From a virus, in IMG/VR virus record IMGVR_UViG_3300037587_000519, positions 1 through 43,780 of that record: a stretch of DNA of 43,780 nucleotides; one strand, written 5' to 3'. The notes beneath the pieces are model-generated. The model did not search any database. It was not told where the DNA came from and saw nothing but the letters and a program-made list of their open reading frames with translations. The first letter of the stretch is position 1, and each line of letters begins with the position of its first letter. The position numbers and the translations under genes were made by a program. Positions 1 to 43,780 of the stretch are shown here, piece after piece.

Positions 1-127
1 AAAAGGAAATAGAGAATGCAAGAATCTAAAGAAGTAACAAAGGCCAAAATAGCTAATGAAGAGTACTTACTAAAGGCTCGTCAAGAAAATGACCTCATGT
101 ATAAGAAGAGGCACGCTTTGGACTTTG
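1..127. repeat. Left copy of 127-bp direct terminal repeat
   Basis: The first 127 bases are identical to the last 127 (43654-43780). The repeat lies inside a coding region (the start of the 92-aa gene) and the flanking sequence continues in frame across the join, so a circular or circularly permuted molecule of 43,653 bp is the simplest reading. A length of exactly 127 equals a common maximum k-mer of de Bruijn assemblers, so this is probably an assembly overlap and not a physical terminal repeat. Confidence 0.93.
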
Positions 128-294
128 ATATGGAAATCATCAGGCTAGAATGCAGAATAGAGACTGACCATCTATATGCCACTACATCAATCATAAAAGA
201 GTATGGCCCCGAAAGTAGTATGCTGACCTTGATAGATAAGATGCGCGATAAGGGCTTGGAGACACTCGCCAAACATAAAAAAGGAAGTGAGTAG
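16..294 (+). CDS. Hypothetical helical protein (92 aa)
   Basis: Starts at ATG 16 (same base as 43669 in the terminal repeat) after an AAGGAA ribosome site and ends one base before the next gene. The product is charged and mostly helical, with long KAKIANEEYLLKARQEN and DMEIIRLECRIE stretches that suggest a coiled coil. I do not recognise a family. It lies in the rightward early operon, between the ribbon-helix-helix-like gene and the pentapeptide-repeat gene. Confidence 0.75.
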   Translation: MQESKEVTKAKIANEEYLLKARQENDLMYKKRHALDFDMEIIRLECRIETDHLYATTSIIKEYGPESSMLTLIDKMRDKGLETLAKHKKGSE

Positions 295-1041
295 ATGAGC
301 GACGAACAAAGAAACACAGGTGACAGGAACACAGGTTACAGGAACACAGGTGACCGGAACACAGGTGACAGGAACACAGGTTACAGGAACACAGGTGACC
401 GGAACACAGGTGACTGGAACACAGGTAACAGCAACACAGGTGACTGCAACACAGGTTACTGCAACACAGGTTACTGGAACACAGGTGACAGAAACACAGG
501 TAACTGGAACACAGGTTACTGCAACACAGGTGACAGGAACACAGGTTACTGGAACACAGGTGACAGAAACACAGGTAACTGGAACAATTGCAATTTTGAA
601 ACTGGGTATTTTAATACCACTCAATCGGATGATGTTAGAATATTTAATAAATCCTACCCTAGAGAAAAATGGGAGAGTTTAGATAAGCCAGATTTTTTGT
701 ACTTTAATCTTACAGAATGGATTAGAAGTGAAGATATGACGGATAAGGAAAAAGAAGAGAATCCAACTCATGAAACGACATGTGGATATTTAAGAAAATA
801 CGAATACAAAGAAGCTTTTAAAGAGTCTTGGGATGAAGCAAGCAAAGAGGATCGAAAGAAAGTATTTAATCTTCCTAATTTTGACGCTGATATATTACTT
901 GAGATATCCGGCATCGATGTAAGGAAGGATGATAACTCAGATAAAATCAAAACATTGATTGAGGCTCAAAAAGAGTTAGTCGAGAAGGCAGCAGAAATAC
1001 AAAAACAAATTGAGGGGCTACAGAAATACCATGGAGCTTAA
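295..1041 (+). CDS. NTG pentapeptide-repeat protein with conserved C-terminal domain (248 aa)
   Basis: ATG at 295 directly follows the previous stop. Residues 7-96 are 18 uninterrupted five-residue units of the form NTG-D/Y/N-R/W/C/S, then a degenerate unit (residues 97-106). Such units are expected to form a right-handed beta-helix. Residues about 110-215 form a separate domain with PREKWESLDKPDFLYFNLTE, a DMT.KEKEENP segment, GYLRKYEYKEAF, and NFDADILLEISGID, a combination I know from pentapeptide-repeat proteins of phages and bacteria with no defined function. Residues 216-248 look like a coiled coil; the last eight (GLQKYHGA) derive from a duplicated segment read in a different frame. Role unknown; it belongs to an early accessory operon. 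Confidence 0.8.
   Translation: MSDEQRNTGDRNTGYRNTGDRNTGDRNTGYRNTGDRNTGDWNTGNSNTGDCNTGYCNTGYWNTGDRNTGNWNTGYCNTGDRNTGYWNTGDRNTGNWNNCNFETGYFNTTQSDDVRIFNKSYPREKWESLDKPDFLYFNLTEWIRSEDMTDKEKEENPTHETTCGYLRKYEYKEAFKESWDEASKEDRKKVFNLPNFDADILLEISGIDVRKDDNSDKIKTLIEAQKELVEKAAEIQKQIEGLQKYHGA
313..582 (+). repeat. 15-bp tandem repeat array (18 units)
   Basis: Eighteen consecutive 15-bp units around AACACAGGTGACAGG encode the NTG pentapeptides. Because the unit is a multiple of three, gain or loss of units by slippage or recombination keeps the frame. The array leaves other frames open on both strands, which creates long false reading frames (VTGTQ and VPVTC types). Confidence 0.95.
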
Positions 1042-1178
1042 AATGAAGGCGTTAGATAAATCATCACCTAGCGATAATGTCCAGCTTATTATGCTTACCG
1101 GCATGATATCTGGAGTGAATGAAGCAATTAAACAAGCAGAGGGTAGATTATGAGCACAGAGGTGATGGAGCACAGGTT
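1015..1178 (+). repeat. Segmental duplication, copy 1
   Basis: About 160 bp matching 1686-1849 without gaps and with roughly ten substitutions. Its left end replaces the 3' end of the NTG-repeat gene and its right end runs into a fragment of another NTG-repeat gene, so this copy is a recombinant junction. Confidence 0.9.
1043..1153 (+). CDS. Truncated duplicate of the 57-aa gene (36 aa)
   Basis: ATG 1043 to TGA 1153 gives MKALDKSSPSDNVQLIM..., matching residues 22-57 of the intact gene at 1651. The first 21 codons are lost at the duplication boundary. No good ribosome site is visible; translation could be coupled to the stop of the NTG-repeat gene two bases upstream. It overlaps the next fragment by ATGA. 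It may be a remnant and not a working gene. Confidence 0.45.
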   Translation: MKALDKSSPSDNVQLIMLTGMISGVNEAIKQAEGRL

Positions 1179-1212
1179 ACTGGAACACAGGTTTCCCACC
1201 AAAGTTATTTAG
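1150..1212 (+). pseudogene. Broken duplicate of the 65-aa gene
   Basis: Begins MSTEVMEH exactly as the intact gene at 1821, then changes to RLLEHRFPTKVI and stops at 1212, because from about 1173 the DNA is NTG-repeat sequence in another frame. The ATGA overlap with the preceding frame is kept from the parental copy. A recombination event has cut this gene after eight codons. Confidence 0.75.
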
Positions 1213-1348
1213 AACAGATAATGACGATTACTGGCAGTTTCATTTAGACATGCTGAATGATATTGAAGATGGGTTAGGCGATTTCAATGCCGAAATAAGA
1301 CAAGTTGCGCATAAAAGCATAACAACCGATATACTAGTCTCATATTAG
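1166..1348 (+). pseudogene. 3' remnant of a second NTG-repeat gene
   Basis: In the frame of codon 1175-1177 the sequence reads WSTGYWNTGFPPKLF, then about 45 further codons to TAG 1348, with no start codon at the front. The two NTG units match the style of the gene at 295, but the C-terminal tail (DYWQFHLDMLNDIEDGLG) differs. It looks like the end of a different member of the repeat family, joined to the duplicated segment. Confidence 0.6.
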
Positions 1349-1371
1349 TCAGCTCAACCAAGGAGAGCAAC

Positions 1372-1632
1372 ATGAAGAAAGTCTCACTCAGTTACAAGTT
1401 AGTCGAAGGAAGCCACAACAGTGAAGGACAATTTGTTCAACATGGGCCAAAGTTGGAGGAGGAAACACTAACCTTCTATAATGAGTCTGACTTATTGGCT
1501 TGGATCTCGAAGAGTCGTGAAACACAATTCAAGTACATCGAAGTCAGTACAGTATTCTTTAGCCGTAACCAATGCTCAGACGGACGAGCTTTTGATGAGC
1601 TTACCGTATTGTCAAGATTTTTACCTCGATGA
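1372..1632 (+). CDS. Hypothetical protein (86 aa)
   Basis: ATG 1372 with ribosome site AAGGAGAGCAAC just upstream. The protein begins MKKVSLSYKLVEGSHN and contains a LLAWISKSRETQFKYIEVS segment; mixed alpha/beta, soluble, no family recognised. It stands between the two copies of the segmental duplication, so it is part of what the duplication spans. Confidence 0.7.
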   Translation: MKKVSLSYKLVEGSHNSEGQFVQHGPKLEEETLTFYNESDLLAWISKSRETQFKYIEVSTVFFSRNQCSDGRAFDELTVLSRFLPR

Positions 1633-1650
1633 ACTTAAGGAGTTTAAAAA

Positions 1651-1824
1651 ATGAGCAAAAAACAGGAATATATCGACTTCATGAAGGGCTACAGAAATAC
1701 CATAAAGCTTAAAATGAAGGCGCTAGATAAATCATCATCTAGCGATAATGTCCAGCTTATTATGTTTACTGGCATGGTTTCTGGAGTGAATGAAGCAATT
1801 AAACAAGCAGAGGGTAGATTATGA
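1651..1824 (+). CDS. Hypothetical protein (57 aa), intact copy of a duplicated gene
   Basis: ATG 1651 preceded by TTAAGGAG. The protein starts MSKKQEYIDFMKGY and its last 36 residues recur in the truncated copy at 1043. Helical and soluble, unknown function. The stop overlaps the next start as ATGA (1821-1824), so the two genes are probably translationally coupled. Confidence 0.65.
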   Translation: MSKKQEYIDFMKGYRNTIKLKMKALDKSSSSDNVQLIMFTGMVSGVNEAIKQAEGRL

Positions 1825-1849
1825 GCACAGAGGTGATGGAGCATAAGTT
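1686..1849 (+). repeat. Segmental duplication, copy 2
   Basis: Matches 1015-1178 at a constant offset of 671 bp. This copy sits inside two intact overlapping genes (1651-1824 and 1821-2018), so it is the likely parent. Confidence 0.9.
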
Positions 1850-2018
1850 AAGATTTGGTGAAGGTGAAATAATGGAGTTTATTGAGTGTCACGCAAACTT
1901 TCTACTATTATCATTGAGCGAAGAAGATGTTTCTCTTTCTGAGGTAATGATTACCAATGCCGACGATGTTCAGAGAATTATTGACGTGTTAGAATTACAT
2001 AAAGCCCGAATGAGATAA
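1821..2018 (+). CDS. Hypothetical protein (65 aa)
   Basis: ATG 1821 overlaps the upstream stop. The protein MSTEVMEHKLRFGEGE... is acidic with a predicted C-terminal helix (VQRIIDVLELHKARMR). Its first eight codons recur in the broken copy at 1150. No family recognised. Confidence 0.7.
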   Translation: MSTEVMEHKLRFGEGEIMEFIECHANFLLLSLSEEDVSLSEVMITNADDVQRIIDVLELHKARMR

Positions 2019-2068
2019 CAGCAAAGAAGATCCCTAACATAACCATTAACTACTAAAAGGTAAAAATT

Positions 2069-2953
2069 ATGAATGAAGAAACTGAAGTAGCAAAATTGAC
2101 AGAATTCGAGACTAATCTTGTAAACGCGGCACAATCTTGTGAAATCGCACGTCAAGAAAAGAATCACACAATCCAGACTCTTAAGCTCGCCAAGGGCTTA
2201 TCAGATCTCAAAAGGGCTCTATTGGCACCAGAAGTCCTTTCTTTGATAAAAGAGTTAATGAATACCCCAACTGGATTCTTGACTGACAAAGATCCATCCA
2301 AGCCTGTAAAGAATAAAAAAACTCAACAGTGGGAGAATCCAACCCCATATAGCGACAAAATTATTGTTGAATGTGTCGCTGATGCTATGTCAAAAGGGCT
2401 CACTATTCATAATAATGAGTTTAATATCATTGTTGGCCGCATGTACCCTGCACAAGCCGGATTCACAAGAAAGCTTGCAGAGTTTAAGCGCAAGCATAAA
2501 ATAAAAGCCGGCTACATGCCGTCAATTCCAAAAAAGAGCGGTGCTGCATATTTTTGCGAAGCTGTGGCATGGTGGCAAAAAGAAGGTGAAGACAGGCAAG
2601 AAGAAACGATTTCTTGGAATCTTGCTGCATTTTCTGAAGATGCCGCTTTAGGTAAAGTCAAAAAACGGGCCAATGAGTGGTTATTTAATGAGCTTTCCGG
2701 CAACACCTGGACGTCCGCAGAGAATCATATTGATTTTAATCCTACTAAAAATGCCAACGACATTGATATGCCGGAAGAGCCAAGGGAGCAATCAACGCCG
2801 CCAGCGTCAAAAGAAACAGTCTTGGATGCTTTGAATGATGCCGAGACTATTAAAGGACTTGAGGCGAGATATAAAAAAGCTTGTGACATTGGTTTCAGCA
2901 AAGATGACGACATTCACGCCGCATATAATGAGAAAAGAGAGAGCTTTCAATAA
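2069..2953 (+). CDS. RecT-like single-strand DNA annealing protein (294 aa)
   Basis: Probable recombinase that anneals single strands during phage recombination or replication. The core lies at residues 55-140: an LMNTPTGFLTDKD segment, then a helix ending ADAMSKGLTIHNNEFNIIVGR and YPAQAGFTRKL, a pattern I associate with RecT-type phage annealing proteins. Residues 220-294 are charged and probably disordered with a helical end. Ribosome site AAAAGGT; the stop overlaps the next start as TAATG. The neighbouring YqaJ-like exonuclease gene strongly supports a two-component exonuclease/annealase system. The exact RecT subfamily is uncertain. Confidence 0.8.
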   Translation: MNEETEVAKLTEFETNLVNAAQSCEIARQEKNHTIQTLKLAKGLSDLKRALLAPEVLSLIKELMNTPTGFLTDKDPSKPVKNKKTQQWENPTPYSDKIIVECVADAMSKGLTIHNNEFNIIVGRMYPAQAGFTRKLAEFKRKHKIKAGYMPSIPKKSGAAYFCEAVAWWQKEGEDRQEETISWNLAAFSEDAALGKVKKRANEWLFNELSGNTWTSAENHIDFNPTKNANDIDMPEEPREQSTPPASKETVLDALNDAETIKGLEARYKKACDIGFSKDDDIHAAYNEKRESFQ

Positions 2954-3744
2954 TGAAAATCGAAATCCCAGTATTTAAAATTCGTGCCAGCGCTGCAAGT
3001 AAAATTATGGCCAATGGCAAAGGCTCCGGCGGTTTAACCGATAGGCAAAAAGAAGAACTTGCCGACCTTCAAGCAAAAGGAAGTAAATCAAAAAAAGTAC
3101 AGGAGTTAATCGACAAGCGCGATAAACCGCCGGAACTTTCAGCAGGGGCAAAGACTTATTGTAAAGCTTGGCTAAAAGAGCAAAAGGGTTTTTATGGTCG
3201 CCGCAAAGAAATAAAATCTAAGTATCTGGATAAAGGCAATGAGTGTGAGGATGAAGCTATTGGCCTTCTGAATAAAATTCACCTTGAAGATTATATTAAG
3301 AATGAGGAATTTTTTGAAGATGATGACTTGCAGGGCACACCGGATATAATCGCAAACCTCACAAGAGACACAAAATGTAGTTATGATGAAACTACCTTTC
3401 CTTTATTTGAAGACTTCTGTGATGATGATTATTATTGGCAGGGGCAAGTTTACATGGAATTAACCGATAGACCGGCGCATTCAGTTGATTATTGCCTAAT
3501 AGATACTCCAGACCACCTCATAGAGCGAGAAATTGAGTTTGCTGCTTATACTTCTCCAAAGCCTGATGAGGAATTGAGAGAGTATTATTATAATAAAATG
3601 CGGTTTACGGACATCACCAGCTTGAAATTAAGAGTTAAATCTTTCTGCTTTAATCGTGATAAGGAAAAAATTCAGCAGTTGAGGCAGCGCGTTAAAATGT
3701 GCCGTGAGTATATTAAAACTTTAGTGGAGAAGGTGGCGCTTTGA
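2953..3744 (+). CDS. YqaJ/RecE-like exonuclease (263 aa)
   Basis: A PD-(D/E)XK nuclease of the lambda-exonuclease/YqaJ type, expected to resect double-strand ends for the adjacent annealing protein. Residues 92-102 YLDKGNECEDE form the first helix motif; GTPD at 128-131 and DTKCS at 139-143 supply the D...D-x-K catalytic core; YYWQGQVYMEL at 160-170 is the glutamine motif. The start ATG overlaps the upstream stop (TAATG), showing tight coupling. An insertion at 24-60 rich in K and E is predicted to be coiled coil. The next gene starts at TTG inside the stop (TTGA). Confidence 0.88.
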   Translation: MKIEIPVFKIRASAASKIMANGKGSGGLTDRQKEELADLQAKGSKSKKVQELIDKRDKPPELSAGAKTYCKAWLKEQKGFYGRRKEIKSKYLDKGNECEDEAIGLLNKIHLEDYIKNEEFFEDDDLQGTPDIIANLTRDTKCSYDETTFPLFEDFCDDDYYWQGQVYMELTDRPAHSVDYCLIDTPDHLIEREIEFAAYTSPKPDEELREYYYNKMRFTDITSLKLRVKSFCFNRDKEKIQQLRQRVKMCREYIKTLVEKVAL

Positions 3745-3941
3745 GGCTGACCGAGGATCTACCCCACTGCATGAGCTGCGACCTCATAACAGCAGGCAAA
3801 GACGAAGCTATGAAGATTCAGATCGCTGGTGAGCATATCGCAAGGGTAATTAATCTAAGCCAGTCTAAAAGGAAAGTAGAGGATTATTCAATAAAGATAG
3901 TCAACAACCAAGCTTATTTTACGTTAATAAAAGGAGAGTAG
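3741..3941 (+). CDS. Hypothetical protein with TTG start (66 aa)
   Basis: The TTG at 3741 overlaps the exonuclease stop and has a GGAGAAGG ribosome site 7 bases upstream. An ATG at 3771 is a weaker alternative. A CMSCD pair near the N-terminus could bind metal; the C-terminal part has alternating beta-like IKIVNNQAYFTLIKGE. Function unknown. Confidence 0.6.
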   Translation: MRLTEDLPHCMSCDLITAGKDEAMKIQIAGEHIARVINLSQSKRKVEDYSIKIVNNQAYFTLIKGE

Positions 3942-3942
3942 G

Positions 3943-4104
3943 ATGGCTAAATGGCCTAAAGTAACAATCAGCGTCTTAGATATCGATGTAGTCAAAGATC
4001 TAATAAAATTAACCAAAGATTTATTCAATGAGTTAGAGGGTCAGGATTGTTACCCGCCCATTCTTGAGGATTATCGAGATAGAATAGACAAGTTGATTAA
4101 GTAA
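3943..4104 (+). CDS. Hypothetical protein (53 aa)
   Basis: ATG 3943 after AAAGGAGAGTAGG, TAA at 4102-4104. The product begins MAKWPKVTISVLDIDVVKDL and is a small helical soluble protein. The same leader sequence AAAGGAGAGTAGGATG recurs before the next gene, so the ribosome site block was probably duplicated. Confidence 0.65.
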   Translation: MAKWPKVTISVLDIDVVKDLIKLTKDLFNELEGQDCYPPILEDYRDRIDKLIK

Positions 4105-4115
4105 AGGAGAGTAGG

Positions 4116-4436
4116 ATGATTAGAAATGTATTTAGTTTAGGTTTATTATCGTTTGCGGTTTGGATTACTTATGTCAATAAGACAGATCCTTATTTAAATG
4201 TATTAATGGCTTATGCATTTATTGGGTTAGTTTTCATGCCTTTAGTGTTTTTGGGATATGCATTTACGCCAAAGGATAAGCTAAAGCCCCTTGCGGCGAG
4301 TTTATCAAAATTAACACTCAATTTGCTTTGGTGTGTGGTTTGGGTAAAGATGATCATAATGGGTTATTTATGGTCAGGATCACTTGGCATAATTGCGGTG
4401 ATTGGATGCCATTGTATAATGAGGCCGCACTCTTAG
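4116..4436 (+). CDS. Multi-pass membrane protein (106 aa)
   Basis: ATG 4116 with an AAAGGAG ribosome site. Three to four hydrophobic segments: about residues 5-20, 28-48, and one or two in 67-100, with short charged loops (TPKDKLKP). Holins have this size and topology, but it sits in the rightward early operon with recombination genes, so a superinfection-exclusion or other membrane role is equally possible. It is the last rightward gene before the convergent leftward terminator. Confidence 0.65.
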   Translation: MIRNVFSLGLLSFAVWITYVNKTDPYLNVLMAYAFIGLVFMPLVFLGYAFTPKDKLKPLAASLSKLTLNLLWCVVWVKMIIMGYLWSGSLGIIAVIGCHCIMRPHS

Positions 4437-4513: not shown

Positions 4514-4687
4514 CTAAGGAATTAAAGGCAACTTTAGGCTCGGGCTTAAATCTTCTAAATCCGATCCTTTTATATATGAGTCTATCTTTATATCACTTGA
4601 ATCCTTAATTGTAATATGGATCTCTTTTTGGATTATGCACGAGGTAAACAGAAATACACACAAGGTAAATTTTAGTTTGCTTTTCAT
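4514..4687 (-). CDS. Small lipoprotein, candidate outer-membrane spanin (57 aa)
   Basis: Start 4687 with an AGGGAG ribosome site. Residues 1-16 MKSKLKFTLCVFLFTS form a signal sequence ending in lipobox LFTSC with Cys16 or Cys17 as the lipidation site; the mature part is about 40 residues. A short lipoprotein at the end of the late operon, close to a membrane-anchored coiled-coil protein (4847-5176), fits the o-spanin role of fusing membranes at lysis. It is not proline-rich as lambda Rz1 is, so the assignment is inferred from topology and location. Confidence 0.6.
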   Translation of the reverse strand: MKSKLKFTLCVFLFTSCIIQKEIHITIKDSSDIKIDSYIKGSDLEDLSPSLKLPLIP

Positions 4688-4821
4688 TGATATCTCCCTG
4701 CTTCTAAGTTATCCAAGAATGAGGTAATCGCGCTCAGGGCCTCTTTGCGGATGGGTGCGGCCTCCACTTGCCCTGTCCTTTTTAGTCCATCTCTGATTGC
4801 TTTGCGTGTGGTGATGCTCAT
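4684..4821 (-). CDS. Hypothetical protein (45 aa) with TRK-x-IR motif
   Basis: I place the start at ATG 4821 (MSITTRKAIRDGL) after AGGAAGGGG; a TTG at 4878 would add 19 residues but overlaps the upstream gene. The N-terminus resembles that of the 146-aa protein at 41995 (MSAPTRKVIREAL), at the other end of the leftward gene set. The rest is a single predicted helix pair. The stop overlaps the lipoprotein start as ATGA. Confidence 0.55.
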   Translation of the reverse strand: MSITTRKAIRDGLKRTGQVEAAPIRKEALSAITSFLDNLEAGRYQ

Positions 4822-4846
4822 TGTACTAACCCCTTCCTGAATACGA

Positions 4847-5176
4847 TTACTTATCTTTCTTGTTATCGAGAACATCAAAAACTTTGCCTAAGAGTTTCTT
4901 TATATCTTTAACATCTTCACCGATGCAGTCAATTTTAACATCGATCTCGGTTTGCTTATTCACTATTTTATTTATCGAGTCTTCATGCTTTTCGAGTCGC
5001 TTCTTGATTGGCCTTATCTTATCATCAACTTTCTTATCCACTTCAATCAAAATATCGCCTTTCTCGGTTTTAGTCTTCATAATGAAAAAAGGACTTACAA
5101 AAGAGATTAGCAATGTTAGCAATCCTAATCCGATAGCAACTTGAGACCCTTCTGAAATACCTAATATAAAACTCAT
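4847..5176 (-). CDS. Membrane-anchored coiled-coil protein, candidate inner-membrane spanin or holin-associated (109 aa)
   Basis: One N-terminal membrane segment at residues 12-33 (VAIGLGLLTLLISFVSPFF), then a highly charged helix from about 37 to 109 with heptad-like spacing (IKKRLEKHEDSINKIVNKQ). N-terminal anchor plus long coiled coil is the i-spanin layout, and a lipoprotein gene lies downstream. Small phage holin-like or XhlA-like proteins also combine these elements, so the precise role is uncertain. Confidence 0.6.
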   Translation of the reverse strand: MSFILGISEGSQVAIGLGLLTLLISFVSPFFIMKTKTEKGDILIEVDKKVDDKIRPIKKRLEKHEDSINKIVNKQTEIDVKIDCIGEDVKDIKKLLGKVFDVLDNKKDK

Positions 5177-5258
5177 TATTTAAACCTATGACAATTTGAC
5201 GTTACTTAATATTGCACTTCAGCCAATAAACTGCAACTTATAGCGTAACATTATACTC

Positions 5259-5657
5259 CTAAACACTAAAATTAAAACTAGCTTTACCGCCGGATCTTAC
5301 AGCCTCAAAGTACTTAATTAACCTTACTCTTGCCATGTGCCGCCGGGCAGTATTGACACCCCATAGATACCATCTGTCTGGCGTATTCTCGATAATAAAT
5401 AAAGATGTTCCAAGCATTTCTACATCAGATCTAAATCGATCCTTTTTGTTTCCGCCTATCGCATAATTCGCATCATGTTGATAAAAGGCAATATTGCAAT
5501 CGATACCATATAGAGTATGCGGAATCATCATCGCTAAAGTTTTATTATTATCTGGCCCCGCATAATCACAACTCGGCTCGTAAGGCCCGATTGCGTCATA
5601 GTAGCTTTTATACTCTGGCAGGTTTATAAACCAATCATGTATTTCTAAGTCATTCAT
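5259..5657 (-). CDS. Phospholipase-A2-like phage protein (132 aa)
   Basis: The segment from residue 46 reads IPHTLYGIDCNIAFYQHDANY, followed by AIGGNKKDRFRSDVEML and a C-terminal RVRLIKYFEAVRSGG. The HD dyad, the downstream D..., and the tyrosine/valine helix match a phage family I know as phospholipase-A2-like, in which His-Asp are the catalytic pair. It lies between the receptor-binding genes and the spanin-like genes, where an endolysin would be expected. It might act on membranes during lysis or entry. No signal peptide is seen. Family moderately sure, activity unproven. Confidence 0.55.
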   Translation of the reverse strand: MNDLEIHDWFINLPEYKSYYDAIGPYEPSCDYAGPDNNKTLAMMIPHTLYGIDCNIAFYQHDANYAIGGNKKDRFRSDVEMLGTSLFIIENTPDRWYLWGVNTARRHMARVRLIKYFEAVRSGGKASFNFSV

Positions 5658-5666
5658 AATTTACCA

Positions 5667-7088
5667 TTAAATAATATAAGTTTGAGTATCGCCGTCTGCT
5701 GTAGCGCTATTCTGCGCAGTGCCATTATTTGAGTTGACGCTTAAATCATTGAGTGAATCATCGTTACTATTCGCCGCGTATGCCATAGCCGCCTTAGATT
5801 GAACCCCTGAAGTAAGTTCATCAAAGGTAATGACTCTATTGCCAGCCCCATACAAAGAAGCAACTTCAACCGAACTAAGAGCAGAGTTAAATATCATTGG
5901 CTGTGTAGCTGATCCGACCATAGAACCCGCTCCAATATTAGGCCCGCCATAATCGCCGATAGAAACACTTGTTGTCGAGTTATGGATACCTGAGCTATAA
6001 GTTGTGCTATTCTCTAAGACTCCATTAATATATATATGGATATCGGTTCCATCATAAACGCCAACTAAATGCTTCCAAGTATCCGAATTTGAGGCAGTAG
6101 TACTTGATACGGTAGTAGTGCTTGTGCCGCCAGAAGAAACAAAGAATTTATATACTCCTGATTCTGATCTTAAGTTCCAGGCTCTTTGATTGTCTGAAAA
6201 GCTATATTTTGAAAAGAATATCTTACTTGCTACTGAATCCTTGACCCATATAGCGACAGTTATATTGCCGGTGATTTGTAAAGTAGCGCCATTACCTGAG
6301 TTGATATAATCAGTGTTATTGAATCCAAAAGAGTTATATACAGCAGTTGTAAACTCCGGCCCAATCTTCCAAGTGACAGGCTGACCATTCACAAATGAAC
6401 CGCCAACAAACGCGCCGTTATTTCCTGCGGTGGATAGGTCGGTTACAGTGTCGTCATTACTACTCAGCTCAAATGCCATTACAGCATCATCTGTTATTGC
6501 GGTATCTATTAGAGAATATTTACACGGCATACCGCCATTGTATATAGTCGCAAAGTTCGCAAGAGATGAGGGAGAATTAAATAACATAGGCTGAGTAACA
6601 TCAAGGTCATTGGAATAAATAGTAAGGTCAATTGTCCCTATCTCAACAACTCCCGATCCAGAAAAACAGGCCCCCTTGGCTGTGGATTGTTCAGAGGCTC
6701 CATTTATACCAACATAAACATTGCCCCCTGTTAATCTGAAATGGACTAAAGATAATGTATCCATAGGCACATCAACTGTCGAAGCAAATGTAGTATTAAC
6801 TATACCATCAACAGAGTGATTGAAGATTATGTTTCCAGAAGTGTTTATTCCGAGCCCCCATGATCTCTGATTTCCTGATTGCGTGAATTTACTCATTATC
6901 CGCTGAGTGTCGAATCTATTCTTAGGATAAACGAAAGCACAACCAGCGAAATCATTAGTCATATCTAGGGTAGCGTGGTCGGCGACTGTAACACCCCGGA
7001 AAGTATCAAGATTGGACATAAAATACTTGGCGAAGTTGGCTACCCCAAGTTTGGCGCTGGTTAATATACCCCTGGCTAACGGTGTCAT
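5667..7088 (-). CDS. LamG/concanavalin-like receptor-binding protein (473 aa)
   Basis: Two laminin-G-like (jelly-roll) domains are visible. The first covers about residues 30-190 and the second about 230-420; the second includes ITVAIWVKDS, RAWNLRSESGVYKFF, WKHLVGVYDGTDIHIYING and SVSIGDYGG, typical of LamG_3 lectin folds. Such domains bind glycans at the tail tip. The start overlaps the upstream fibre gene by one base, so the two are probably co-translated. Likely the distal host-recognition subunit. Confidence 0.75.
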   Translation of the reverse strand: MTPLARGILTSAKLGVANFAKYFMSNLDTFRGVTVADHATLDMTNDFAGCAFVYPKNRFDTQRIMSKFTQSGNQRSWGLGINTSGNIIFNHSVDGIVNTTFASTVDVPMDTLSLVHFRLTGGNVYVGINGASEQSTAKGACFSGSGVVEIGTIDLTIYSNDLDVTQPMLFNSPSSLANFATIYNGGMPCKYSLIDTAITDDAVMAFELSSNDDTVTDLSTAGNNGAFVGGSFVNGQPVTWKIGPEFTTAVYNSFGFNNTDYINSGNGATLQITGNITVAIWVKDSVASKIFFSKYSFSDNQRAWNLRSESGVYKFFVSSGGTSTTTVSSTTASNSDTWKHLVGVYDGTDIHIYINGVLENSTTYSSGIHNSTTSVSIGDYGGPNIGAGSMVGSATQPMIFNSALSSVEVASLYGAGNRVITFDELTSGVQSKAAMAYAANSNDDSLNDLSVNSNNGTAQNSATADGDTQTYII

Positions 7089-9370
7089 TAGGTAACATCT
7101 CCTGGAATTTCCCAGTCATTCGCGGCGACCTGCCACAGTAACGCGCCTTGGTGTTGATTATTCACGACCACTGAGCCATTCAGGACGCCGTTAATGGTTA
7201 CTCCAGTCTCGCCATTAATTGTCGTAATACCAACACCTCTTTGTAGAACTGGGATCTTTGTCGCTAATGGTAAGGCAACCGTTGCATTTAACGGGATCGT
7301 TACCGCATTTGAAAGAGCACTTGTCATTACGATATTTGTATTATCTTTATCAGTTAATACTAAAGGATAAGCGACCCCAGCCTGAATATTATCTACACCA
7401 GCTGCAACAGCTTCAGGGGAAAGGGTGTTAAAGACTGCGTTAAAGGAATCCTCAACAGTTGGGCCGCCAAATAAGGAAGAGTCGCCAATTATATTTGAAG
7501 GGTAATCGCCAAGTGCAGGGATGACTCCGGCTGTTCTTCCATTAAAAGAAGCGACACCAGAAGCACCACCAACGGTTAAAACATAGGCTGCAATACCGCA
7601 AGCTTTACCAGATTCAATAATAACACCGCCAGAAATTGACGTGCCAACTATATTGTAAGAAGTAGTCGCAAGCGTTGAGGAAGTCACAGAGAAATATAAA
7701 AATCTTGCAGTGTCGTCAATTTGGTAAACAATAAAAGCATCACCAGACCCAACGCTTGAAAGTTGATTAGTTATATTAATGCCATTGATATCTGTAGTGC
7801 TTGCTCTGATTGTCGTTACACTTCCTGGTGTTCCATTATCAAATTTTACTGCGCCGCTTGCTGGTTCAGTGCCTGATGTATCTGTATCAAAGTTTTGTTC
7901 AAAGGCTGGCCTACCGCCGCCACCTCCTCCTGGAACAGTTCCTGGTTCCCATTCTTGAGTTGAAGTATTAAAAGATAATACGTCCTCATTTGATGGGGTA
8001 CTTGCGGAGGCAGCAATAGTTTTACCTAAAAATTGATCCGCATTCCATTGCGCGACTGTATTACCAACTTGCGTGGCTGTGACATCATGAGGATCTGACA
8101 TATTAGCTCGATGTGAGGTATTTAAAGCAATAGCAGTATCTTGCGTGTCGTCATTCGCGTCAAGCTCATTAATCGCGGCTTGAACATCGGTGGCAGCTAT
8201 GTTGCCCGCTGGTGTGTTTGTGACGGCTGAGGCCACAACACCGGTAACAACTACAACATCCCAAGTCGGCCCGGTTGAGTTATATCGGTAAAGAGCCCCG
8301 TCGGCTTCATTTCTGACTTCATCCCAATCTTTATGTACATTTGAGGGGGACCATGCCGCTAGAGTAGAGGAGAAAGTTGCAATTTGCTGCTCAAGCCCGG
8401 CAAACGCCCCAGCCGCTGGCGGAATAACTATATAAGCGTCTCCATCTGAGGGAGAGCCTGGAGGAATCGCAATCTTGCTTATAACCGTGCCGAAATCTCT
8501 AAAATTCTTATTGACTATTTTATCCAATCCATCGTTCATCGTCGAAGGGGAGGATGTTGAAATTCTTAACCATCGATTCGAGTCAGCCGGTGAATATACA
8601 TAAACTGCATTACTTGGAATGTTCCCACCGGACCCAATAAAATCACCGTCAACACAATTAATTCTTTGGTAAGATTGAATAAAATCATCGCCATCTTCAA
8701 GAGCGATAAAGAAAGATATTGCCCCGGAAGCATCAAAATCAAATTGTGAGAAAGTGTCTGGGATTGTGTCTTTGTCCCAACTTGCGTTGTATTCATTTTG
8801 AATGTCTGATCCAGCTTGAGTAACCGCGAGCTTGATAGATTCGATTGGGGCCGTTAATAACGCGTCGTCAATAGTAGAGTCAAAACTTATGGCAAATCCG
8901 CCGGAAGTCTCAATTAGTATTTTCGCGCTGGCCTTTGAAAGGTTTTCTTTCGCTTCGATTGTTACTACAAAATCGCCCGGTGATCTACTTGTTAGAGCCT
9001 CCAAAGCAGTTTGGACTATTGCCGCAGTAGCATTATATGCGATTGCCGCAGTATTTTCCCCCGCCACTCTAAGCACAAATGTTCCGCCTGTTGGAGGAAC
9101 GGCATTACTTGTAAGTGTAAAGATTTCTCTAGTAAAACCCACTACCCCAGTTGCTAAAGTCGTCGGAAGCTCACCGCTTTCAAAAGGAACCGTTTGGAAG
9201 TCTGAGCCAGTAAGTGAAGAGATATCAAAAGGTAGTCCGGCGGCGTCTTTGTGAATAAGTGTTATATCGCCCGATTGCCGTGTAATTAACTGATCAGGCA
9301 GGGCTTTAAATGTTTTAGATTGGCCAGTACCGCCAACGACTACAATTGCTGAATATTCTGGTGTGAGCAT
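7088..9370 (-). CDS. Tail fibre / baseplate receptor-binding protein (760 aa)
   Basis: Large serine-, threonine- and glycine-rich protein at the end of the tail module. The first 200 residues resemble upper-baseplate domains; a central helical segment AINELDANDDTQDTAIALNT followed by DPHDVTATQVG is common in phage fibres; a GGGGGG hinge occurs near residue 487; the C-terminal 250 residues are beta-rich. It starts at 9370 with an AGGA site. The N-terminus probably attaches to the tail and the C-terminus forms the shaft. The exact domain families cannot be settled by eye. Confidence 0.7.
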   Translation of the reverse strand: MLTPEYSAIVVVGGTGQSKTFKALPDQLITRQSGDITLIHKDAAGLPFDISSLTGSDFQTVPFESGELPTTLATGVVGFTREIFTLTSNAVPPTGGTFVLRVAGENTAAIAYNATAAIVQTALEALTSRSPGDFVVTIEAKENLSKASAKILIETSGGFAISFDSTIDDALLTAPIESIKLAVTQAGSDIQNEYNASWDKDTIPDTFSQFDFDASGAISFFIALEDGDDFIQSYQRINCVDGDFIGSGGNIPSNAVYVYSPADSNRWLRISTSSPSTMNDGLDKIVNKNFRDFGTVISKIAIPPGSPSDGDAYIVIPPAAGAFAGLEQQIATFSSTLAAWSPSNVHKDWDEVRNEADGALYRYNSTGPTWDVVVVTGVVASAVTNTPAGNIAATDVQAAINELDANDDTQDTAIALNTSHRANMSDPHDVTATQVGNTVAQWNADQFLGKTIAASASTPSNEDVLSFNTSTQEWEPGTVPGGGGGGRPAFEQNFDTDTSGTEPASGAVKFDNGTPGSVTTIRASTTDINGINITNQLSSVGSGDAFIVYQIDDTARFLYFSVTSSTLATTSYNIVGTSISGGVIIESGKACGIAAYVLTVGGASGVASFNGRTAGVIPALGDYPSNIIGDSSLFGGPTVEDSFNAVFNTLSPEAVAAGVDNIQAGVAYPLVLTDKDNTNIVMTSALSNAVTIPLNATVALPLATKIPVLQRGVGITTINGETGVTINGVLNGSVVVNNQHQGALLWQVAANDWEIPGDVT

Positions 9371-9517
9371 TTTGGGCGGTTCCTATCTATTAGTTTTACT
9401 TATTAAGATAACGTTTATTATCAATAATACTAATACTCAGAATTGCCGCTATAGCCTCTTAAGCTTGAGCCCGTTACAATTAAAGCCACCCACTGCAATT
9501 ATTCTCATTCTTTTCTC

Positions 9518-9526
9518 TGGTATATT
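9518..9526 (+). promoter_or_regulatory. Extended -10 promoter of the pseudopilin cassette
   Basis: TG-G-TATATT (9518-9526), an extended -10 motif, lies 22 bp before the ATG at 9548. No good -35 is visible. It faces rightward, against all surrounding genes, so the cassette has its own promoter. The rest of the 9371-9547 gap shows no other clear feature. Confidence 0.45.
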
Positions 9527-9547
9527 AAAATAAAAAGGAGAAGCAAA

Positions 9548-9718
9548 ATGAAAGTACTTGTCGGTATCATCGCAGTTATAATGCTATTAAGTCTCGCTAT
9601 TTACTCAGCTATCAATCTATTTATCGCGCCAATTTGGATGCTTTGCATGATGGCTTACAGTTCATTCTTTATCTATATGGTGATAAAAGACATGACTAAA
9701 AAAGAGGTGGCGCAATGA
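9548..9718 (+). CDS. Small membrane protein of the pseudopilin cassette (56 aa)
   Basis: ATG 9548 with AAAAAGGAG upstream; stop overlaps the next start as ATGA (9715-9718). Two hydrophobic segments: residues 3-20 (VLVGIIAVIMLLSLAI) and 24-46 (LFIAPIWMLCMMAYSSFFIY), then a charged tail KDMTKKEVAQ. It may help insert, hold or process the pseudopilin encoded next. Unknown family. Confidence 0.65.
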   Translation: MKVLVGIIAVIMLLSLAIYSAINLFIAPIWMLCMMAYSSFFIYMVIKDMTKKEVAQ

Positions 9719-10152
9719 AAAAGAAAAACTTTACTATTATCGAGCTTCTAGTGGTCATGACTATAATGTCAATCCTCTTAGGTATATCCATGCAAGTCCT
9801 TAAGCCAGATAGAGCCAAAGCCGCTATCAAGCAAGTCGGCGGCAGCATCACTGCTTGGAGTGCAAGAGCGATGTCTGAAAGCACTAGCTATCGTTTAGAG
9901 TTCACCAAAAATCTTATTGAAGTTTATAATATTAATAATGAATTAGTTTACTCAAAGAAGACAATGAGCCCTCTTTCATTCTTTGATCATGCGGATATCC
10001 CCCAACCATTGCCAGATCAGACAATCGTGTTTAATAAATTCGGCAGCATGGGGGATCTAAGAGGTGCTAGAATATATGCTGATACTTGGATAGCCCGTGT
10101 TAATGGCTTTACTGGTCACTTATCTTATTATGAAGAAGAAGAGGATGAGTAA
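9715..10152 (+). CDS. GspH/FimT-like pseudopilin with prepilin signal (145 aa)
   Basis: The N-terminus MKKKNFTIIELLVVMTIMSI is a type IV prepilin leader: five-residue basic leader, cleavage before Phe, conserved Glu at +5, then a hydrophobic helix of about 20 residues. Total length and the later ARAMSESTSYRLEF, TIVFNKFGSMG and VNGFTGHL segments fit the GspH/FimT class of minor pseudopilins. The residue before the cleavage site is Asn, where most bacteria have Gly. It is encoded rightward inside the leftward tail operon, as a moron-type insertion. It would need host prepilin peptidase and could alter host type IV pili or type II secretion. It ends back-to-back with the next gene. Confidence 0.8.
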   Translation: MKKKNFTIIELLVVMTIMSILLGISMQVLKPDRAKAAIKQVGGSITAWSARAMSESTSYRLEFTKNLIEVYNINNELVYSKKTMSPLSFFDHADIPQPLPDQTIVFNKFGSMGDLRGARIYADTWIARVNGFTGHLSYYEEEEDE

Positions 10153-11481
10153 TTATATTTCTTCTTGTTCGATAAACTTAAATTCGTCCTGTGGGAGTTC
10201 ACATATAGCTAGGTTTATTTTATCGTATGTGCCTTGAGTCCTTCTTTTATGGCTCTCATTAGAGAAGTTAGTAGGCGCTGATGGAGGCTCAGTATCATCA
10301 GCCAGTGTATCACTAAAGCTATACGTATCTCTTATGTCCGCTATGGTGCTAATATCAACCAAGTTCCGATCTACACTATAGCTAATTGAAAACTTAGGAT
10401 TTTCAGCTCTAAAACTAGAGAAAGTCGTCTGATCTGGTACATAGACATTTGTGAATGTATCAGGACTGCCTGATGTGGTGGACGTGGCTGTGTTTGTGTG
10501 GCTCGCGGGTACTACACCAGTTTTAGTACTTACTTCAATATCAGAATATGAAAGGGTTGATGATGATTCAGAGGCGGCTTCGTGAGTCAAAAGGTCAGAA
10601 GTTGATTTAATGTCTCCGAATTGCTTATCTATTAGTATTTCTATATTCATCAAGGCCGGAGTAACGCAAAATAAGGGAGACGTTACAATGAATGAGAAGA
10701 CACCAGCAGAGTCATTTGTGACATTCCCAATAAATCCCTGAAAGTTTCTAGCTCTGTTCCTAGAATCAGTACTCAAGTTAATATTAGATAGAAGCACTGA
10801 CCCTCTATCTAATGAGCTATCTGGATTAGACTTAGATTCAGAGACTAAATTATCTAAGAAGGTAATCGGATCAGTACCGGCATCAACGCTAGAGCCCGTG
10901 CCCTCTGCCCCTCTAAAGATATCTAGCCCGTTTGATACAAGATAAGGTTCAGTTGGGTTTGGGTCATGAGCCGTTTTAATTGTTAATCTTCGGTAGAACA
11001 TGACAATACTCAGTAACTTATACAAGCCAGACCAATAAGAAGGGTTAAAATTAGTATCGAAGGAATAGCTAACGAAGATGGATTCATAAACTTCATCAGT
11101 CAGGAGGGTTCTCAAGGCCGCTTCATCCCATACTTCAATGTCAATAATACCCATGCCAATAACAGGGGGATGAGTAGATGAAGTTAAACCATTAGTATAA
11201 TCCTTTAAATCAAGCCATGTCTGCTCTTTATACCAAGTGGTATTATTGAAGCATGATACGGCATTAAAATGGAATATTGACAATCGTCCTGTTAATTCAG
11301 TCGATCCTATCTGTGGGCCGGTTAAAATTAAAGCATCATAAGTTTCTGCCCGCTCAGCCTGCTCTATATAATCAGCCCTCTCTTGAAAGGCTTTGAAGAA
11401 GGCGTTAAAGAATTTCCAACTAACAAGATAGCCAGCGGGTATATTCTCAAGATCATCTATAAGTAATTCATCCCAACTCAT
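10153..11481 (-). CDS. Putative tail/baseplate protein (442 aa)
   Basis: Located among tail genes between the fibre and tape measure blocks. Begins MSWDELLIDDLENIPAGYLV; contains aromatic-rich segments (SYWSGLYKLLSIVMFYRRL) and a serine/threonine-rich beta part from about residue 200. The start overlaps the upstream stop by four bases. No family recognised; location suggests a distal tail or baseplate component. Its stop codon abuts the pseudopilin stop with no spacer. Confidence 0.6.
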   Translation of the reverse strand: MSWDELLIDDLENIPAGYLVSWKFFNAFFKAFQERADYIEQAERAETYDALILTGPQIGSTELTGRLSIFHFNAVSCFNNTTWYKEQTWLDLKDYTNGLTSSTHPPVIGMGIIDIEVWDEAALRTLLTDEVYESIFVSYSFDTNFNPSYWSGLYKLLSIVMFYRRLTIKTAHDPNPTEPYLVSNGLDIFRGAEGTGSSVDAGTDPITFLDNLVSESKSNPDSSLDRGSVLLSNINLSTDSRNRARNFQGFIGNVTNDSAGVFSFIVTSPLFCVTPALMNIEILIDKQFGDIKSTSDLLTHEAASESSSTLSYSDIEVSTKTGVVPASHTNTATSTTSGSPDTFTNVYVPDQTTFSSFRAENPKFSISYSVDRNLVDISTIADIRDTYSFSDTLADDTEPPSAPTNFSNESHKRRTQGTYDKINLAICELPQDEFKFIEQEEI

Positions 11482-43522: not shown

Positions 43523-43690
43523 ATGCCACAAGCATCAATTAAGATTAGCACTTTTACACATAGTGTTTTAAAGGACGTTAAAGAGCTGACAGGTAAGTCG
43601 ATTACCAGAATAGTTGAAGATCTAGTTAAAGCCGAATATCCAGCTAAATATAAAAAAGGAAATAGAGAATGCAAGAATCTAAAGAAGTAA
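43523..43690 (+). CDS. Small ribbon-helix-helix-like protein (55 aa)
   Basis: ATG at 43523, TAA at 43688-43690, with an AAAGGAA ribosome site 6-7 bases upstream. The N-terminus reads MPQASIKISTFTH, a short beta strand, followed by two predicted helices with KSITRIVEDLVKAEY in the second. This is the size and layout of Arc/MetJ-type ribbon-helix-helix DNA-binding proteins. It is the first gene of the rightward operon and overlaps the next gene (start 43669) by 22 bases in another frame. It may regulate the adjacent divergent promoters. The family assignment rests on pattern only and the C-terminal tail is basic and probably disordered. Confidence 0.6.
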   Translation: MPQASIKISTFTHSVLKDVKELTGKSITRIVEDLVKAEYPAKYKKGNRECKNLKK

Positions 43691-43780
43691 CAAAGGCCAA
43701 AATAGCTAATGAAGAGTACTTACTAAAGGCTCGTCAAGAAAATGACCTCATGTATAAGAAGAGGCACGCTTTGGACTTTG
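43654..43780. repeat. Right copy of 127-bp direct terminal repeat
   Basis: Exact repeat of bases 1-127. It contains the last codons of the 55-aa gene that starts at 43523 and the first 37 codons of the 92-aa gene (start 43669, equivalent to base 16). See the left copy for interpretation. Confidence 0.93.
43669..43780 (+). CDS. Duplicate 5' part of the 92-aa gene, cut by the window end
   Basis: Same sequence as bases 16-127; the reading frame runs off the window end and continues at base 128 when the genome is closed. It is not a second gene. Confidence 0.9.
   Translation, partial: MQESKEVTKAKIANEEYLLKARQENDLMYKKRHALDF

Follow-up and report, generated by a model that had tools for sequence, protein, structure and literature searches.

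A gene for a small two-helix membrane protein and a gene for a GspH-like pseudopilin make up a single unit that is conserved in at least four phage contigs, the two parts occurring either as overlapping genes or as a single fused reading frame. One of these contigs is IMG/VR record IMGVR_UViG_3300037587_000519, all 43,780 nt of which were analysed here (the window). It is a virus record with terminase, portal, HK97-type head and tape-measure genes, and an exact 127-bp direct repeat at its termini (1–127 and 43654–43780) makes the genome look complete, as either a circular or a terminally redundant molecule.

Within the window, both genes of the cassette are found on the + strand, where an earlier note on this DNA had placed them together with their ATGA overlap. 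The first (9548–9718) has a strong ribosome-binding site (AAAAGGAG) and encodes 56 aa that ORF calling, hydropathy and homologues identify as a two-helix membrane protein; from its hydropathy, and from charges that are confined to the termini, it is predicted to form a hairpin with both ends in the cytoplasm. The second (9715–10152) shares the ATGA stop/start at 9715–9718, an arrangement suggestive of translational coupling, and encodes a pseudopilin of 145 aa. This protein opens with a short basic N-terminus, MKKKN, which places Asn at position −1 (9715–9729), continues with a hydrophobic helix, FTIIELLVVMTIMSILLGIS, that in a four-phage alignment bears Phe at +1 and Glu at +5 (9730–9789), and ends in a GspH-like body, predicted to be periplasmic, containing an IVFNKFG motif and a C-terminal N-x-FTG-x-x-S motif (9790–10149). 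Its N-terminus is matched by Pfam N_methyl (27 bits, with the cutoff at 21.2; E = 2.9e-6) and by NCBIfam TIGR02532 (17.8 against 16.3), and a strict regular expression for prepilin starts selects 1 of the 178 ORFs in the window, compared with 0.01 per genome in amino-acid-shuffled ORFs.

The neighbours of the cassette are phage tail, lysis and recombination genes, and no genes for secretion or pilus machinery were found near the phage cassettes. On its 5′ side, the − strand (4847–9370) encodes fibre-like (760 aa), LamG-domain (473 aa), 132-aa and holin-like proteins. On its 3′ side, the stop of the pseudopilin gene (10152) abuts that of a convergent tail-region gene of 442 aa (stop at 10153; gene at 10153–11481, −), which marks the boundary of the module shared with a relative, contig L010. 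The earlier note's view that the cassette opposes every neighbouring gene holds locally, both flanking genes (7088–9370 and 10153–11481) being on the − strand, but not further away, where genes at 16–4436 also use the + strand. Its suggestion of a dedicated promoter is not borne out by a consensus scan, which returned 5 sites against 3.0 ± 1.8 expected and so did not exceed chance, although the region at 9462–9547 (+) is partly conserved in an alignment with L010 (GTTACAA, CTGCAA..ATT and an AT-rich −10-like stretch) and is a candidate promoter or leader. The blastn block common to the window and L010 (9462–10133) takes in this partly conserved 5′ region. Elsewhere in the window, a + strand gene at 295–1041 encodes a protein that begins with a long run of five-residue repeats, NTG(D/N/Y)(R/W/S/C), and proteins with five-residue repeats can form a regular beta helix. 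Near-identical stretches at ~1018–1200 and 1651–1844, with reverse-strand ORFs (MLHHLCAHNLPSACLIASFTP...) at both, represent a small duplicated gene of the early region.

The cassette, which the earlier note had proposed to seek in related phages, recurs in three further phage contigs. L010 (IMGVR_UViG_3300037459_000113), recovered by a leader-pattern scan of viral contigs, holds both in the same order and with the same overlap, its pseudopilin being 78 % and its hairpin protein (5956–6129) 61 % identical to those of the window. For L210, the cassette is a single ORF of 185 aa in which the hairpin, MKKILQAVAVIMLSVLGIYSVINFVAGPLWAFCMIAYSVGFIRLILKDVDFKK, is joined directly to VKA-FTMIELIMVITIMSILL. 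L196 was recovered by scanning for leaders with a −1 codon that excludes Gly and Ala. It is a separate phage, in which terminase and portal genes of its own are present, and has a 224-aa ORF that is also an in-frame fusion of hairpin and pseudopilin. This replacement of the ATGA overlap by in-frame fusion in L210 and L196 suggests that the two parts work as one unit. Across the four phages, the two-helix hairpin is 52–57 aa in length with both ends predicted inside, the pseudopilin helix is the best conserved part, with F+1 and E+5 invariant, and the IVFNKFG and C-terminal N-x-FTG-x-x-S motifs are common to all four bodies. Amongst 2.9 million viral contigs, the signature FTxxExxxxxTxMS matched only L010, L196 and L210. 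Searches with the window tail proteins as queries found no viral relatives, and single-sequence pseudopilin searches of viral and genome contigs gave no match, the latter because the patterns were too strict.

Comparison of the window with L010 (NG86) yields dN 0.14, dS 0.87 and dN/dS 0.16 for the pseudopilin, and dN 0.26, dS 0.76 and dN/dS 0.34 for the hairpin protein; the cassette is under purifying selection. Its rarity (four contigs by signature, the window included) would fit a host gene captured without function, but a neutral passenger is contradicted by these ratios, and the fact that four divergent phages keep the gene order and either the overlap or the fusion also speaks against it, leaving this explanation barely credible.

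The cassette occupies the same site, beside the tail-fibre/LamG module, in the window, L010 and L210. Fibre-like, LamG and holin/spanin-like genes adjoin it in L010 and L210 too, with the 132-aa gene present in L010 only. The layout of L210 is like that of the window, with exonuclease-like and other genes on the + strand, and spanin/holin-like, LamG-position and fibre genes on the − strand; the cassette itself is on + and the adjoining tail gene on −. Relative to L010, the genes beside the cassette are retained (54 % identity for fibre, 50 % for LamG and 95 % for the 132-aa protein), whilst the upstream tail genes are essentially unrelated (23–27 % over gapped alignments), as is 10153–11481 to its counterpart (23 % over a gapped alignment). 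Values of dS are ~0.8 for the cassette and the 132-aa gene, which is less than half those of the fibre and LamG genes (~1.8), suggesting, from two sequences only, a more recent exchange of the former. In L196 the cassette lies elsewhere: no fibre gene is near it, and its surroundings are metallo-phosphoesterase and protease genes. That the cassette encodes a virion or tail component from inside the tail region, as its place between two tail-region genes in three phages might imply, is highly improbable: it is on the opposite strand in all three, is outside the tail region in L196 and yields a predicted integral membrane protein, and this explanation was set aside on strand and on the L196 position. 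The moron-like nature that the earlier note ascribed to the module is supported.

With regard to the identity of the pseudopilin, sequence comparison indicates that the phage body without its leader is homologous to GspH of a gammaproteobacterial T2SS operon. Leaderless bodies from the window and L010 align with the GspH-position protein of Gammaproteobacterium NORP105 (L125) with shuffle p-values of 3e-4 to 5e-4, a link that rests mainly on this one gammaproteobacterial operon, and the same protein is the best of 114 pilin bodies compared with the leaderless phage body. The gene order in L125 comprises GspG-, GspE- and GspF-like genes before the GspH-position gene, and GspI-, J-, K-, L- and M-like genes after it, these names being assigned by sequence resemblance and gene order. 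A profile of the four phage bodies, to which that of L196 is joined mainly through L210, matches a profile of L125 and L145 (E = 3.3e-5, probability 72 %; reversed control E = 0.42), which itself matches the FimT/GspH profile (E = 4.5e-5), whilst the direct match of the phage profile to FimT/GspH is weak (E = 0.019). Local matches to ComGD are present at residues 4–113 of L010 (E = 2e-6) and 55–157 of L210 (E = 7e-7), and the N-x-FTG-x-x-S motif sits, on visual comparison, where the compared FimT/GspH proteins often have GR. The pairing of a small membrane protein with a GspH/FimT/ComGD-like pseudopilin, for which the earlier note had named GspH/FimT, is upheld, and beyond the leader the body matches GspH in sequence. 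Like the GspH/FimT/FimU/ComGD minor (pseudo)pilins of T2SS, T4P and Com systems, the phage protein possesses the F+1/E+5 helix and a GspH-like body; unlike them it is without Gly at −1, is coupled or fused to a hairpin, has no machinery genes nearby and, for the window pseudopilin, gives no match to Pfam GspH (PF12019).

The structural check advised in the earlier note returned weak signals. An AF2 model from four sequences has a pLDDT of 55.9, with helices at 8–25 and 31–54 and strands at 59–82, and one from two sequences is poor (pLDDT 47). Foldseek against the PDB with the weak four-sequence model places the XcpGHIJK pseudopilus at the top and FimU at ranks 5, 24, 37 and 38, all with E-values of 0.1–0.9, and no significant match was obtained in the PDB or among viral models. 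Searches of sampled genomes with phage profiles (369 Gammaproteobacteria and 388 of the Verrucomicrobiota phylum) uncovered no close host copy; a body-only genome search also missed the genome of the NORP105 GspH, and so the silence of this search means little. The sole body match in the genome searches, L213, is an integrase/transposase-like ORF and was rejected as a chance match.

Reviews state that the prepilin leader ends invariably in Gly or Ala, with Gly critical for processing and E+5 dispensable for cleavage (PMC4471445, PMC10191384). The ‘clear prepilin leader’ of the earlier note does not conform to this rule: residue −1 is Asn in the window, Thr in L010, Arg in L196 and Ala in L210 only, and the phage proteins do not begin with a short, hydrophilic stretch that has Gly or Ala at its end. 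Furthermore, the ‘leader’ of the fused L196 and L210 proteins is the two-helix membrane hairpin, whereas known leaders are hydrophilic and 6–26 aa long, and a leader with two membrane helices is unlike any in the reviews (PMC4471445, PMC10191384). Gly or Ala occupies −1 in all bacterial prepilins of the examined loci (97/97) and in 93 of the 97 distinct viral leaders that a search open to any residue at this position recovered, the four exceptions being L010, a spurious 15-aa ORF and two tandem genes of L056. These last, at ~1300–2500 (−) of a 50-kb viral contig, are prepilin-like with Arg at −1 (KRFTLIELLVV).

At the level of whole genomes, leaders without Gly or Ala, selected by a pattern that excludes Gly, Ala, Val, Asp and Glu codons at −1, occur in 50 of 145 members of the Verrucomicrobiota phylum (sampled as the phylum to which locus L153, Verrucomicrobium sp., belongs) versus 0 of 143 Gammaproteobacteria. 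Many of the matching genomes carry tens to about 200 such leaders, with N, K, R, S, Y, H or C at −1, and viral contigs in L202–L206 (L202, L203, L204 and L206) also display prepilin-type leaders without Gly or Ala. Judged by these patterns, the Verrucomicrobiota leaders show the relaxation, within one clade, of a rule said to hold without exception. Given how frequent they are in part of the phylum, a host from that part may well cleave the phage leader. In view of this control, the missing Gly(−1) is not taken to prove that the protein is a decoy resistant to cleavage. The non-Gly leader of the phage reflects either relaxed function, in a host with Gly leaders, or the signature of a host from a non-Gly clade. 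GspH-like proteins from the non-Gly-leader genomes bear no closer resemblance to the phage body (scores of up to 40, versus 59–61 for gammaproteobacterial GspH), which favours relaxed function without proving it.

These observations bear on the possibility that the protein is a processed, working minor pilin, cleaved by the peptidase of a non-Gly-clade host and built into the tip of the host pilus or pseudopilus, where it would change binding or secretion, for example in progeny adsorption. The abundance of non-Gly/Ala leaders in the Verrucomicrobiota phylum, their presence in the viral contigs, the retention of F+1 and E+5 in four phages and the Ala at −1 in L210 are all consistent with such a role. 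Against it stand the nearest body, which is that of a gammaproteobacterial GspH and not of a non-Gly-clade protein, the conservation of the hairpin as a partner, and the fact that cleavage in L196 and L210 would, unlike that of known leaders, remove the hairpin; we regard it as doubtful.

Pilin-like genes as such are already known in phages, contrary to the earlier note, which had considered them foreign to known phage tail modules. One small prepilin-like protein of a phage is matched by 169 GenBank phage records, some of them annotated ‘pilin’, and PHROG 3433 is named pilin. These genes, PHROG 3433 and other small prepilin-like proteins amongst them, likewise place a prepilin-type N-terminus in a phage genome; the window protein matches PHROG 3433 over residues 2–40 only (E = 0.002), and homology across the family is not seen. 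Acibel004 gp97 (MKNKGFTLIELM) differs in that −1 is Gly, the body is of another kind and the ORF upstream encodes no two-helix hairpin. The lowest NCBIfam E-values (2.4e-5 and 4.2e-5) belong to the Verru_Chthon cassette proteins C and D (TIGR02599 and TIGR02596), but at 23.7 bits these matches are far below the cut-offs of 256.5 and 70 bits, and they arise mainly via the N-terminal helix. As far as the searches reach, three features appear new: a body of GspH type, a hairpin that is coupled or fused to it, and recurrence of the cassette across divergent phages. An open-access literature search on phage-encoded pilins and prepilin-type phage genes found no paper, and in a broader open-access search no title or opening part of an abstract described a phage-encoded pseudopilin. 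A separate prepilin-leader family of ~320–335 aa (WQAxCxNNQRQLNxA...SINLFVGGWSGWPW) was observed to recur in many viral contigs (L024, L026, L054, L060, L063, L072, L082, L101, L105 and others); these contigs may come from phages that infect PVC-type hosts or be misassigned pieces of such hosts.

A device for lysis or membrane timing, in which the hairpin would behave like a small holin of class II or an antiholin and the body of the pseudopilin would serve as a periplasmic regulator, is unlikely. Although the size and predicted topology of the hairpin would suit it, and holin/spanin-like genes lie nearby in the window, L010 and L210, the cassette is on the strand opposite to the late/lysis genes, separate holin-like genes are already present, the L196 copy has a metallo-phosphoesterase and protease setting, and the conserved F+1/E+5 pilin helix would be left unexplained. 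A PHROG holin profile search with the 56-aa protein gave no match. As regards the lysis genes themselves, a holin/hemolysin-like protein and a small lipoprotein-like ORF (4514–5176, −) adjoin the fibre module, and no endolysin was recognisable among the proteins checked near it. The 132-aa protein (5259–5657, −, in the window; 9650–10048, +, in L010) is far more conserved than the other shared genes, which are ~50 % identical, and has no Pfam or PHROG match; it contains CNIAFYQHDANYA, which resembles the C..HD..Y active site of phospholipase A2, and it might fill the endolysin role.

We infer, with confidence a little short of even, that the cassette encodes a hairpin-tethered GspH mimic that jams or alters the pilus or T2SS machine of the infected cell, with the host T4P or T2SS as a plausible target. 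Its products would be made in the infected cell and be absent from the virion. The hairpin would be embedded in the inner membrane. As charge pattern and hydropathy predict that both of its ends are cytoplasmic, the pseudopilin helix would start inside and cross the membrane, with the GspH-like body on the periplasmic side. The N-terminal helix is the part by which pilins bind the platform and one another, and the conserved phage helix may dock on the host pilus/T2SS platform or on the minor pseudopilins H-I-J-K. Because its leader is usually a poor prepilin-peptidase site and the protein is tied to, or part of, the hairpin, the subunit would dock yet not be pulled into the growing filament; held in the membrane, it would then stall or retune assembly as a dominant-negative or modifying mimic of GspH. 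Counted in support of the mimic are the linkage of the oppositely oriented cassette to the fibre/LamG genes, against a background of differing upstream tail genes, and the occurrence of the fused form in a stretch without a fibre module (L196).

The likeliest benefit to the phage would be superinfection exclusion. Phage phiAP1 requires an active T2SS, with excess GspG leading to partial phage resistance and altered pseudopilin stoichiometry lowering type II secretion (PMC9765573), and phages are known to disable T4P for superinfection exclusion (PMC11436027). On these precedents, superinfection exclusion, or a shut-off of receptor or secretion, is the first-choice role, although it falls somewhat below an even chance, with the processed, modified pilin as a less probable second. 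The proposed outcome is like that of the anti-T4P exclusion proteins D3112 gp05, DMS3 Aqs1 and Pf4 pVII/PfsE (PMC11436027), but these bind PilB or PilC/PilJ and are not described there as pilin mimics.

The pilus-disabling phage proteins described in PMC11436027 target motors or platform proteins. More tentatively, the cassette could represent a new class of phage effector, in which a membrane-tethered, non-extractable combination of hairpin and GspH mimic plugs the T2SS/T4P platform from the inner membrane and is exchanged along with host-recognition genes. If this is true, a phage with its own altered pilus-tip subunit, wired to a membrane hairpin, would reveal a way of jamming type IV filament machines from within, and the cassette would be a ready-made genetic tool for blocking secretion or pili. 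Through the cassette, one can test whether the pilin-like proteins that phages encode form filaments or sabotage them.
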